From assembly GCF_000016985.1 (NCBI RefSeq), contig NC_009633.1, positions 3,701,539 through 3,765,538 of the forward strand: 64,000 nucleotides of DNA, read 5' to 3'. The notes under the pieces are model-generated. The model saw only the letters and a list, made by a program, of their open reading frames with translations, was not told the DNA's origin and ran no database searches. Positions 9,360 to 44,508 of the stretch are shown here, in pieces. The DNA comes from Alkaliphilus metalliredigens QYMF. GTDB taxonomy: Bacteria > Bacillota > Clostridia > Peptostreptococcales > Natronincolaceae. Made by a program: the position numbers and the translations under genes. The stretch's first letter is position 1, and each line of letters opens with the position of its first letter.

Positions 9360-9767
9360 ATGGAGGTATTAGTAAAAACATTAAAGTCAAAGGGTTGCAA
9401 AATTACACCGCAAAGATTAGCTGTCTTTCAAGCATTAAAAAAACGCAAGGATCATCCCAATGCAGAAAGCATTTATAAGGACTTAGAAGCAGCCTATCCT
9501 ACCATGAGTTTGGCAACTATTTATAAATCATTAGAACTTTTTATTGATTTAGGCCTAATTCAAGTCATCAATGTAGGAGAAAACAGCTTTCGTTATGATG
9601 GAAATAACGAAGTCCATTCACATTTGATTTGCTCACAATGCGCAAGGGTGGAGGATCTAGACAATTCAATCTTTCAAAACTCAATTCCTTCGGTTCAGGA
9701 AATATCAAATTACAAAGTAGAAAAACAACAGTTTTGCTTTTATGGACATTGTCCTACTTGTCAATAA
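9360..9767 (+). CDS. Fur family metalloregulator, PerR-like
   Basis: A 135-residue DNA-binding repressor of the Fur superfamily. The winged helix covers about residues 10-80 (ITPQRLAVFQALK, AYPTMSLATIYKSLE). The dimerisation domain carries two CxxC structural zinc pairs (CSQC and CPTC) and a histidine cluster HSH for the regulatory metal. The peptide resembles PerR more than Fur because of its short length and the pattern around HSHLICSQC. PerR would sense peroxide and control detoxification genes, but no such target is adjacent. The start is supported by AAAGGTGG. It is divergent from the HAD gene and is followed by its own terminator. Confidence 0.87.
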   Translation: MEVLVKTLKSKGCKITPQRLAVFQALKKRKDHPNAESIYKDLEAAYPTMSLATIYKSLELFIDLGLIQVINVGENSFRYDGNNEVHSHLICSQCARVEDLDNSIFQNSIPSVQEISNYKVEKQQFCFYGHCPTCQ

Positions 9768-9794
9768 ACACCTGAACATACAGGTGTTTTTTTT
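9766..9794 (+). terminator. terminator of the PerR-like gene
   Basis: A 9-bp stem (9766-9774 with 9781-9789) starting in the stop codon is followed by eight or more T residues. Confidence 0.9.
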
Positions 9795-9830
9795 ATACAA
9801 TAGGAAATTTCTGCTTTCCTATTGTATAAA
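9792..9830. repeat. perfect 16-bp inverted repeat
   Basis: Bases 9792-9807 pair exactly with 9815-9830 around a 7-base loop. The hairpin lies between the regulator's terminator and the putative RNA at 9832. The outer part (TTTATACAAT) recurs as a direct copy at about 10005-10014, on the far side of the RNA. It could be a second terminator or the end of an inserted element. Confidence 0.7.
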
Positions 9831-9831
9831 A

Positions 9832-10007
9832 AAGAGGGGTTGTAGGGGATGGAATCCCCTGCCCGTCTTCAGGAAGGTGCTCAGACAGCTTGGCTGTCGT
9901 CGAAGGAAACCTAGGGTCTCCTATAAGCAGGCAACCAATTTAGCTTGCTAAATTGTGTTGATCGCTTAGTTGTTTCATCTAGCGAGAGCGTCGAAGACGC
10001 TCTTTTT
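9832..10007 (+). ncRNA. unassigned structured non-coding RNA with its own terminator
   Basis: A 176-base segment without a credible ORF but with nested complementarity. GGTTG (9838-9842) pairs with CAACC (9932-9936), and CCTGC (9858-9862) pairs with GCAGG (9927-9931). Local hairpins lie at 9844-9860, 9884-9898 (six pairs around TTG), 9936-9955 and 9962-9985. It ends in a hairpin, 9986-10002, followed by five T residues on the plus strand, which fixes the likely orientation. No good promoter was found just upstream, so it may be made by read-through from the regulator gene. It is not a tRNA, RNase P, SRP or tmRNA. The raiA or HEARO RNA classes are possibilities from general size and context only. 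Confidence 0.55.
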
Positions 10008-10014
10008 ATACAAT

Positions 10015-11094
10015 TTAGGATAAAATTTCACTTAAGACTTGTATAAACTTTTCATTTGATTGTTCATCTTTAATGGCTATCCTAAAAAACTGTTCCCCTA
10101 ATCCTTGAAAGTTAGAACAATCCCGTATCATAATATATCGCTCCAATAGCTTTTCTTTTAATTCATCTATGCTTAGACTGGAATCCATTAATTTAATTAA
10201 AACGAAGTTAGCAGTAGATGGGTATACCTTCATTCCTTTGATTTCCTTTAGTTTTACCATAAAGCGGGGTTTTTCATGCTTGAGCCAGCTTTTTGTTTTT
10301 TCTACATAGACTTTATCATTTAAAAGCACTTCCCCAAAAAAACTTGCAAAGGTATTGACACTCCAAGGGATCATTGTATCTGTCATTTGTTCTTGTACCC
10401 CTTTGTCTCCGCATACACCAAAGCCTAGTCTAATACCAGGCATTCCAAAATACTTTGTAAAGGCTCTGATTACAATTAACTCCTTATATTGTTCTACCCA
10501 TTTGAGTACACTGGATCTTTCGTTTTCTCCAACAAAATCAATGAAAGCCTCATCTATCATTACTTTTATTTTTTTATCCTCGCAATGTGTGACCACACGC
10601 TTCAGATCTTCTTTTGAAATTAAATTTCCCGTTGGATTATTAGGATTGCATAATATAATTAAATCAATAGAATCTGTCAAGGATTCTAGCAGGCTTTCGA
10701 TATTGATCTGGAAGGAGTTCTCTTCCCTTAAATAGTATCTAATGACATCACAATCAAAAGCCTTCAATGCCCGTTCATATTCGCCGAATGTCGGTGCCAA
10801 AATCAATGCCCTTTGGGGCTTTAATACTCGAATAAAATCAAAAATCAGCTGTGCTGCACCATTCCCTACAAGTACATCTTCTTTTTGTATACCATAATAA
10901 TGACCTATGGCAAATCGCAAATGATGATAATCGATATCTGGATAATGACATAGATCATTATATTTTTCCTGAATTATCTTTTGAAATGATTCAGGTACAC
11001 CCATGGGATTAATATTCGCGCTATAATCCAAAATTTTTCCTGCCCCAATGGATTTTTCTCTTTCTACCTGAACAATATTTCCACCATGTCTCAT
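10015..11094 (-). CDS. cobD: threonine-phosphate decarboxylase (CobD-type PLP enzyme)
   Basis: A PLP-dependent class I/II aminotransferase-fold enzyme of 359 residues. In cobalamin synthesis CobD decarboxylates L-threonine O-3-phosphate to (R)-1-amino-2-propanol phosphate, the linker of the nucleotide loop. The N-terminus MRHGGNI and DYSANINPMG are typical of CobD. CNPNNPTGN (about 150-158) and the Schiff-base lysine in AFTKYFGMPGIRLG (about 215) complete the active site. HisC is the close alternative, but the operon position, last gene after cbiB, supports CobD. The ribosome binding site is GAGGGGGT. The stop codon abuts the right edge of the putative RNA element at 9832-10007. Confidence 0.92.
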   Translation of the reverse strand: MRHGGNIVQVEREKSIGAGKILDYSANINPMGVPESFQKIIQEKYNDLCHYPDIDYHHLRFAIGHYYGIQKEDVLVGNGAAQLIFDFIRVLKPQRALILAPTFGEYERALKAFDCDVIRYYLREENSFQINIESLLESLTDSIDLIILCNPNNPTGNLISKEDLKRVVTHCEDKKIKVMIDEAFIDFVGENERSSVLKWVEQYKELIVIRAFTKYFGMPGIRLGFGVCGDKGVQEQMTDTMIPWSVNTFASFFGEVLLNDKVYVEKTKSWLKHEKPRFMVKLKEIKGMKVYPSTANFVLIKLMDSSLSIDELKEKLLERYIMIRDCSNFQGLGEQFFRIAIKDEQSNEKFIQVLSEILS

Positions 11095-42269: not shown

Positions 42270-43946
42270 TTATTTAAAACTGCTTCCCCCAATAAATTCA
42301 CGTAAGATTGATGTTTTAGGAATATCATCTTCTTTATCTAAAGCTACAAAATAACTTAAAAATTTCAACAATCGTTTAGCCTCGGGATGATAGGGACTAT
42401 TGTTGTCTACTTGTCGTAACAAAGGCTCTACATATTTTTTCAATACACCCAGTTCATAAAACATCGCGGAGTTAAACATCGCATCAGCATCCTCTTGAAA
42501 AGGAAAAATATTTTTTTCTTCTCCACGTCTAACCGAGGGCCATAGGGCTAGTGTTTTTTCTACATCAATGGATCTAAACTGATTATCCCTAACCATTCTT
42601 CTAATCATTCGTGTATCAGTAGTTGGAATACGATTATGTTCATCTACATTGATTTGGGTTAAGGCACTAATATAAACCTTAAACTTATTTTCTCTAGGAA
42701 TAGCTTTGGTTAATTCATCATTCAAACCGTGGATTCCTTCTAGTACAATAGGTTGGTCCTTACCAATTTTCACTTTATGCCCCTTATACTCTCGTTTCCC
42801 TATATGAAAATTGAAGGTTGGAATTTCGACTTCCTCTCCTTTTATTAACAATTCAAGATGCTCATTAAAAAGTTCCAAGTCAATGGAATGAAGAGACTCA
42901 AAATCATATTCTCCATCTTCCCCCAAAGGGGTGTCTTCCCGATTTACAAAGTAATCATCTAATGAGATTGGTATGGGTTTAAGTCCATTTACCTTGAGCT
43001 GAATGGCTAATCGTTTGGAGAAGGTTGTCTTTCCAGAAGAAGTTGGCCCAGCAATTAAGATCACTCGTTTTCGATCAATGTTCTCTGTGATTTGATCTGC
43101 AATTTCAGCAATCTTTTTTTCATGTAATGCTTCTGCAATTCTAATGAATTCTCCTTCTTCCCTCTCTACGATCAAATCGTTTAATGAAGCAACATGATCT
43201 ACATCTAGAATTTTCCCCCATTTTTCACTCTCTCTGAATATTTTGAAAAGCTTAGGTTGTTCTTCAAACACAGGGATTTGACCCAAGGCTGCAATTCTTG
43301 GATACTGAATAATAACTCCTGGAGCGTAATATTTCAGCTCAAACGCTTTCAGATACCCTGTAGTAGGAACCATATATCCATAAAAATAATTTTTTAACCA
43401 TCCACACTGATACATATTGATATAGGGCTTTTCACGGTATTTTAACAGCTTCACTTTACCCATTTGCCCATATTCCCTAAATATATCCTTCGCTTCATCT
43501 ATTGGAATCCGACTTTTTTCAAATCTAACATCTTCAGCAATAATGTCGTCCATTCGATTTTTAATCCTCTTGACGTCTTCTTCTACCAAGGGTCTCTTGT
43601 AATGTAGTTCACAATATAACCCTTTACTTAAGGAGTGTTCCACAGATACTTTGCACCCAGAAAAGAGTTCCATACAAACTCGGATAAATACAAAGGACAA
43701 ACTTCTTTGATACACTCTCGACCCAATGGAATGACATACATCTATGAATTGGATATCACTATCCTCGTACAATTGGTAATTTAATTCTTTTAATTGATTA
43801 TCAACAGTTGCTGTTACTATTAAATAATCCATCTCCTCCTGAAATTCTTTACTGAGTTCTTCAAGTGTTATACCAGATTCATAGTCAAATGGTCCTTTAC
43901 CATTGATCATCAGGGCAACATGGCTGCCTGTCTTTTCATTAATCAT
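42270..43946 (-). CDS. uridine kinase-like nucleoside kinase with TGS-type N-terminal region
   Basis: A 558-residue fusion protein found widely in Clostridia. The N-terminal half resembles the TGS and second-additional domains of threonyl-tRNA synthetase (for example SLSFVFIRVCMELF, SVEHSLSKGLYCELHY). The C-terminal half (about 285-500) is a phosphoribulokinase/uridine kinase domain with Walker A LIAGPTSSGKTTFSKRL (about 293-309), DDYFVNREDTPLGEDGEYDF and VLEGIHGLND. The substrate is probably a nucleoside. The ATG at 43946 has AGGGGG 7 bases upstream and is preferred over 44000. It is not clearly in an operon with glsA, 46 bases away, though co-transcription is possible. Confidence 0.9.
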   Translation of the reverse strand: MINEKTGSHVALMINGKGPFDYESGITLEELSKEFQEEMDYLIVTATVDNQLKELNYQLYEDSDIQFIDVCHSIGSRVYQRSLSFVFIRVCMELFSGCKVSVEHSLSKGLYCELHYKRPLVEEDVKRIKNRMDDIIAEDVRFEKSRIPIDEAKDIFREYGQMGKVKLLKYREKPYINMYQCGWLKNYFYGYMVPTTGYLKAFELKYYAPGVIIQYPRIAALGQIPVFEEQPKLFKIFRESEKWGKILDVDHVASLNDLIVEREEGEFIRIAEALHEKKIAEIADQITENIDRKRVILIAGPTSSGKTTFSKRLAIQLKVNGLKPIPISLDDYFVNREDTPLGEDGEYDFESLHSIDLELFNEHLELLIKGEEVEIPTFNFHIGKREYKGHKVKIGKDQPIVLEGIHGLNDELTKAIPRENKFKVYISALTQINVDEHNRIPTTDTRMIRRMVRDNQFRSIDVEKTLALWPSVRRGEEKNIFPFQEDADAMFNSAMFYELGVLKKYVEPLLRQVDNNSPYHPEAKRLLKFLSYFVALDKEDDIPKTSILREFIGGSSFK

Positions 43947-44026
43947 TTTCAATCCCCCTAATGTTCTTTTTATATGTATTGTATTAGTACTCATAATCAA
44001 TATATACCCTAATTTCTACTTCAATT

Positions 44027-44060
44027 AAAAAAGTTCCTGCTAATGAGCAGAAACTTTTTT
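44027..44060 (-). terminator. terminator of CBS-pair gene
   Basis: AAAAAAGTTCCTGCT pairs with AGCAGAAACTTTTTT (44027-44041 with 44046-44060, one mismatch), then T residues follow on the minus strand. Confidence 0.88.
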
Positions 44061-44073
44061 TAGTCTTATGCCA

Positions 44074-44508
44074 TTACTTCATGTTTTTTAGGTTACTTGG
44101 AGTAGAAATTTCACTTAGAGCGTCTCCAGCCTCATCGACATAAATATTTTTAACTGCTAAATCTCCAATGGCTAACATCCCTACGATTTGCCCATTTTCA
44201 ACAACTGGCAAACGGCGAATTTGATTCTCCCCCATGACTCTAGCGGCTTCATGTATATCAGTTTCAGGAGAGACAGACACTAGATTTTGTGTCATGACCC
44301 TCTCTATTGTATCCGTCGCTTGAAGTCCTGCTGTTAATCCACGAATAACGATGTCGCGATCAGTGACAATCCCTACAGGTTGATTTTGTTGATTACAAAC
44401 TGGAACTGAACCTATATCTAAACTTTTCATGATTTGTGCCACTTCATTTACTGTGCTATTTTGCTGGGCAAATGAAACTTGAGATGTCATGACTTCTTTT
44501 ACTTTCAT
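44074..44508 (-). CDS. tandem CBS domain protein
   Basis: A 144-residue cytoplasmic protein made only of two CBS domains (about 1-60 and 67-130), which together bind adenine nucleotides. Each has the pattern of a hydrophobic VNEVAQIM or IHEAARVM helix followed by GIVTDRDIVIRGL or GMLAIGDLAVK. Stand-alone CBS pairs are usually regulatory partners or energy sensors. The start has GGAGGAG upstream. It is monocistronic, with its own terminator, and the partner is not evident. Confidence 0.92.
   Translation of the reverse strand: MKVKEVMTSQVSFAQQNSTVNEVAQIMKSLDIGSVPVCNQQNQPVGIVTDRDIVIRGLTAGLQATDTIERVMTQNLVSVSPETDIHEAARVMGENQIRRLPVVENGQIVGMLAIGDLAVKNIYVDEAGDALSEISTPSNLKNMK

Follow-up and report, generated by a model that had tools for sequence, protein, structure and literature searches.

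Between the PerR-like gene and cobD of Alkaliphilus metalliredigens QYMF lies a stretch of DNA that appears to encode a compact folded molecule, and the question is what kind of element occupies this gap. The locus is part of a window of 64,000 bases, the whole stretch of DNA that was analysed, and positions without further qualification refer to it. An earlier note took the segment 9832–10007 for a structured RNA of unassigned class, with raiA-like or HEARO-like RNA as guesses. Comparison with the Rfam covariance models contradicts the first statement: the full model of RF02937 (Clostridiales-2 RNA; positions 1–82 of 82) aligns to the perR–cobD element with 86.9 bits, well above its gathering score of 58.6 (E 7.9e-20), and this is the element's sole Rfam match at the gathering threshold. 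Neither guess was borne out, since raiA (RF03072) and HEARO / IscB omega RNA, like 6S, gave no covariance-model match in 9650–10150 at E values up to 10 with relaxed filters. Other low-scoring Rfam matches (miRNA, snoRNA and similar) are attributable to chance or to the bare palindrome.

The match names the core of the element and leaves its nature to be settled. RF02937 carries the Rfam type ‘Gene; sRNA’, and neither name nor type hints at dispersal or at an association with terminators. Moreover, the model is confined to the central part of the unit, less than half of approximately 9788–10009, and lacks most of the left palindrome, hairpin P4, an optional cassette and the right-end terminator (Table 1). 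The family probably stems from a survey published in 2017 that proposed 224 candidate structured RNAs. A literature search returned no paper naming RF02937 and no description of the repeat; ‘Clostridiales-2’ matched only microbiome papers. Two further RNAs lie elsewhere in the window, both on the minus strand: a cobalamin riboswitch (RF00174, 19649–19831, 123 bits), with cobD and cbiB in the same window, and a T-box leader (RF00230, 46742–46951, 121 bits).

Table 1. Anatomy of the perR–cobD element and its upstream terminator, in window positions
Feature	Position	Strand	Basis
perR intrinsic terminator, hairpin AAACACCTGAACATACAGGTGTTT and T-run	hairpin 9766–9789, T-run to 9797	+	terminator scan; most other copies alike
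Whole repeat element, A-type with cassette	9788–10009	+	limits from copy alignments
Left-end palindrome, TTTTTATACAATAGGAAA / TTTCCTATTGTATAAAAA	9790–9832 (9790–9807 / 9815–9832)	+	perfect here; fold
RF02937 match	9828–9910	+	86.9 bits
Hairpin P2, GTAGGGGAT / ATCCCCTGC	9842–9862	+	double changes, A-type vs B-type copies
Conserved segment AGGAAGGTGCTCAG, mostly unpaired	9871–9884	+	near-invariant in 52 aligned copies; retained class-wide
Hairpin P3, GACAG / CTGTC	9884–9898	+	A-U/G-C/C-G and A-U/U-A exchanges
Hairpin P4, GGAAACC / GGTCTCC	9900–9921 (9905–9911 / 9915–9921)	+	one mismatch here; A-U to G-C exchange
Outer helix around P4, TCG / CGA	9900–9902 / 9983–9985	+	U-A to C-G exchange
Optional cassette, 58 bases	9924–9981 (own hairpin 9924–9968)	+	copy alignments; internal compensatory changes
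Right-end hairpin GAGCGTC GAA GACGCTC, then TTTTTAT	9986–10009	+	sequence; covarying in copies

The limits of the unit were set by aligning its copies. The earlier limits prove too narrow, the left palindrome being part of the unit. Compared with the consensus built from the other copies in the genome, the whole element shows 94% identity across 222 bases. The order of parts is left palindrome, GGGG and P2, AGGAAGGTGCTCAG, P3, GTCGAAGG, P4, the cassette where present, and the right hairpin, giving a size of about 160 bases, or about 220 with the cassette. Two subfamilies can be told apart by their ends. In A-type copies the left palindrome extends into the T-run and the 3' end is a terminator-like hairpin followed by TTTTTAT; B-type copies start with ATGTCTAGG or ATATATAGG and end in TTTGTTC. 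The left palindromes vary among copies and are yet near-perfect (L018, L057, L094, L106, L211, L223, L235), truncated copies included; either correction of the quasi-palindromes or selection for the hairpin could be responsible.

The impression of far more structure than a spacer needs was sound. Both 9832–10007 (z = -4.0) and the entire element (z = -7.1) fold more stably than every one of their 200 dinucleotide-preserving shuffles; thus strong structure with a terminator-like 3' end (hairpin and T-run, 9986–10007) was correctly observed. The absence of an ORF was not confirmed: an ORF of 69 amino acids (9742–9951) does overlap the segment, although Pfam assigns it no family and there is no evidence of a gene.

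Once the genome is considered, the RNA can no longer be viewed as the product of one gene at one locus between perR and cobD. The single contig of 4,929,566 bases holds 20 RF02937 matches on both strands, plus truncated pieces, and the copies have no fixed neighbours; the perR–cobD element is one copy of a dispersed repeat. RF02937 was found in 14 of 60 relatives, with up to 22 copies in the richest and none in others of the same family; among 297 genomes of the order and 391 of the class, 30 and 29 respectively are positive. The positive genomes of the order and class mostly carry either few copies or more than 10 each, the high counts being lower bounds, so that copy number across Clostridia is very patchy, from 0 to more than 20. 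A pattern scan of named genomes placed the repeat in Geosporobacter, Anaerosolibacter, Anaerovirgula, Natronincola and Alkaliphilus. The viral contigs, phages and plasmids scanned yielded no copy. A more distant relative without P3, with the core AGGAGAGTACAGCGAAGCGTCCTAGGGAAC, occurs at L111–L115 (genomes G006, G008 and G017); G006 has 13 weak matches, with scores under the Rfam cut-off.

The copies permit the fold to be examined by covariation. Across 30 A-type copies, 99.3% of the proposed-pair cells hold standard pairs (94.5% after shuffling), 15 pairs are changed on both sides (4.7 after shuffling), and the covariation score is 0.149 against 0.058. None of these values is reached in 500 shuffles, a count that is not a probability because the copies are related. 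Sliding the partner destroys the signal. Ten of the 15 doubly changed pairs belong to the left palindrome, which has 19 pairs in all. In 52 copies of both types, double changes occur in 11 of 23 pairs. Compensatory changes in homologues thus support the hairpins, and the reading as a structured plus-strand fold that covaries and closes with a terminator-like end of its own is upheld. Plus-strand mismatches are G-T in 45 cells and A-C in 4 (16 and 4 after removal of one constant T-G pair of 29 cells), an excess that points to a plus-strand single strand, whether RNA or single-stranded DNA, as the folded form.

Two long-range helices proposed in the earlier note (9838–9842 with 9932–9936, and 9858–9862 with 9927–9931) did not survive this comparison. 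Their letters are complementary here, but the helices are absent from the minimum-energy fold, and in cassette-bearing B-type copies only 2–4 of the 5 pairs remain. Their 3' halves sit in the optional cassette, and this folds into a separate hairpin with compensatory changes; the helices were therefore rejected as unsupported. The cassette lies between P4 and the 3' side of the outer helix, and is present at an identical position in 8 of the 19 intact copies of the genome and in both subfamilies, the rest lacking it. Overall, 16 of 121 copy segments scanned contain it, at most once per copy. Its sequence is quasi-palindromic, in L025 and L203 perfectly so, and shows compensatory changes from TAAGC/GCTTA to TAAGT/ACTTA (L016) and from CAAC/GTTG to CAGC/GCTG (L056). 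In genome G037, some copies (L096, L104, L106) carry a different cassette at almost this position. A c-di-GMP-I riboswitch lies near a repeat copy of this genome (L102, 1772–1856, minus strand).

The perR terminator directly abuts the left end of the element, and most copies lie immediately behind the T-run of an intrinsic-terminator hairpin and in its orientation. Among 76 copies with a recognisable T-run, 43 (57%) have a hairpin of -8 kcal/mol or lower immediately 5' of it, compared with 17 of 200 control T-runs (8.5%), i.e., other runs of at least 5 T at the same loci (Mann-Whitney p 3e-12). This enrichment is conservative: in several copies (L097, L100, L125, L154) a T-run internal to the terminator was picked, and real terminators are among the controls. 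Of 20 copies drawn from other families of the class, 8 show the arrangement by eye (L220, L222, L223, L225, L232–L235). The perR terminator is presumably the insertion target of this copy. Solitary left-end palindromes, with the rest of the element missing, were also observed 3' of terminator-like hairpins, one A-type (L214, 932–976) and one B-type (L181, 3217–3245).

This pattern bears on another reading of the locus, in which the element acts in cis on perR or cobD, as a 3'-UTR or by reinforcing a terminator. The position just 3' of the perR terminator and adjoining the cobD stop codon would fit such a role. The other 19 matches of the genome, however, have different flanks, and the same arrangement recurs behind many unrelated terminators. 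In view of the dispersed copies, this reading is largely refuted and, in our opinion, highly improbable.

Further lines of evidence suggest mobility. The copies share sharp common ends and differ in their flanks. In the A. metalliredigens genome, truncation is seen on both sides, with four copies shortened at the 5' end (2194447, 483074, 1060645, 3213793) and five at the 3' end (588229, 1237137, 1723132, 3789931, 1021661), and an internally deleted copy at 4412432 joins the left and right end hairpins. In genome G012, L088 and the second L085 copy fuse GGTGC or GATGC directly to a T-run, everything from P3 to the right hairpin being gone. There is one clean empty site, between diverged species: the two genes flanking a Natronincola copy (L083, G012) have orthologues in G011 (L075) with no element in the gap between them, the junction not being base-precise because the intergenic sequence has diverged. 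In two more comparisons (L165/L154, and L098/window 43880–44092) the relative's gap seems to be free of the element, in alignments too poor to count.

A multi-copy regulatory sRNA of the host, in which duplication would have multiplied an RNA gene and every copy would serve the host, for instance by antisense regulation or protein sequestration, has to be weighed against these observations. Such a reading would agree with the Rfam type, with strongly conserved unpaired segments and compensated hairpins, and with the terminator-like right end. We consider it doubtful. No conserved promoter accompanies the copies, the lone promoter-like match (9773–9801) lying inside the upstream terminator at chance level; numbers range from 0 to more than 20 among relatives; and flanks vary, truncated copies are common and placement tracks upstream terminators.

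In our opinion, the feature is best explained as one copy of a non-autonomous, dispersed, terminator-targeting mobile repeat of Clostridia that takes the form of a structured single strand, a reading to which we give a probability of about 80%. A folded single strand, either top-strand DNA or RNA, would be moved in trans by some machinery that may recognise the end hairpins and a target made of a hairpin plus T-run. Insertion behind a terminator would disrupt neither the upstream gene nor its stop signal, and the right-end terminator of the element would re-close the site; insertions would thus be nearly harmless. A transcript, if any, would arise by read-through of the upstream terminator or from some other promoter. 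Several points count against a mobile repeat: the search for a mobilising enzyme found none, a target-site duplication is not statistically clear, only the one clean empty site was obtained, and the unpaired segments are strictly conserved across the class, beyond the needs of a passive hitch-hiker. A more far-reaching reading, in our view unlikely, is a self-contained class of elements that enter terminator T-runs as a folded single strand (RNA or single-stranded DNA), use their own terminator as 3' end, and keep a strictly conserved RNA core recognised by a host or helper enzyme, as a bacterial counterpart of SINEs.

The mobile-repeat reading invites the question of which machinery would be involved. 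Multiple, patchy, non-coding copies are found here, as in classical MITEs and other small dispersed repeats. Unlike in a classical MITE, no terminal inverted repeats in common with an autonomous IS were found: the element begins and ends in two distinct hairpins whose sequences are unrelated, and a blast search with the element consensus found no element ends at any of the 15 Y1 transposase and 7 reverse transcriptase-like loci encoded in the genome. A genome search for either end detached from the core, as expected of an autonomous partner, returned only copies and truncated copies. A reverse transcriptase gene of the genome is adjoined by an RT-14 RNA (RF02921; L201, 2413–2560, minus strand).

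A derivative of the IS200/IS605 or REP type, which a Y1 (HUH) transposase would mobilise in the form of single-stranded DNA, would account for hairpins at both ends, the lack of terminal inverted repeats, a single orientation, a T-rich left target and a plus-strand fold, and Y1 genes are plentiful in this genome. The idea is possible, if tentative. None of the 15 Y1 genes is flanked by the element's ends, and the presence of Y1 does not follow the element: G201 and G279, with 5 and 9 copies, gave no Y1 match, while G015 (20 Y1 genes) and G024 (16) are Y1-rich and without the element. As a helper, Y1 transposase is thus not consistently present.

Alternatively, the repeat could be a retroposon moving through RNA, its U-tail annealing to the A-run opposite a terminator T-run and priming reverse transcription, in the manner of eukaryotic SINEs. 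The plus-strand fold, the A-type 3' U-tail, the T-run target and the genome's reverse transcriptase-like genes are in line with such a route, as are matching sequences 3' of the T-run at both ends of five copies (L017 TTTTTATACAAT, L018 TTTTTTCAA, L080 TTTTTGTCT, L101 TTTTTAAT and L234 TTTTTTAGG). Target-primed insertion, however, favours 5' truncation, and here 5' and 3' truncations are near-equal (4 and 5); B-type copies end in GTTC, not in a T-run; and flank matching, tested as target-site duplication over 58 copies, is not significant (p 0.065), with none obvious in B-type copies. Group II introns were rejected as a helper, since how many a genome has bears no relation to its copy number (G123, one intron, at least 14 copies; G019, 15 introns, 2 copies); group II domain V (RF00029) has no match in the 64-kb window. 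A retroposon is thus decidedly unlikely, and a DNA intermediate appears somewhat more likely than RNA. Given the near-equal truncations, the flank statistics and the search for a partner, which found none, we commit ourselves only to a trans-mobilised folded single strand that targets terminators.

If the mobile-repeat reading is right, an Rfam ‘sRNA’ family is part of a widespread modular mobile repeat whose habitat is the space behind intrinsic terminators, and the clostridial copies should not be annotated as 20 independent sRNAs. The repeat would also serve as a well-delimited case in which to look for the enzyme that moves small non-coding elements without terminal inverted repeats, and to ask why an RNA core is conserved class-wide.

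Several known systems resemble the element in part. Group IIC introns insert 3' of intrinsic terminator hairpins, in one orientation. They share the terminator-hairpin target with the element, which differs in being far too short, in giving no group II match and in its unrelated copy number. The raiA motif, or ModT RNA (RF03072; PMC11706538), is likewise a structured clostridial RNA of similar length, but it does not match the element at E 10. The repeats bcr1–bcr3 of the Bacillus cereus group, called MITE-like (PMC6542083, PMC3446304), are, as far as the descriptions drawn on here go, also small, non-coding and dispersed, with a predicted fold, a copy number that varies and a TTTAT motif associated with mobility, which is a shared likeness; compared by description, these accounts leave terminator placement unmentioned for bcr, and the element lacks terminal inverted repeats. 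BOX of Streptococcus pneumoniae, as described, is a different family, in which modules amplify in tandem, unlike the single cassette of the element, and whose terminal inverted repeats are said to resemble an IS (PMC3049150). BOX is nevertheless modular in the same sense as the element, its middle module being dispensable and the remaining fold undisturbed by its loss (PMC3049150).
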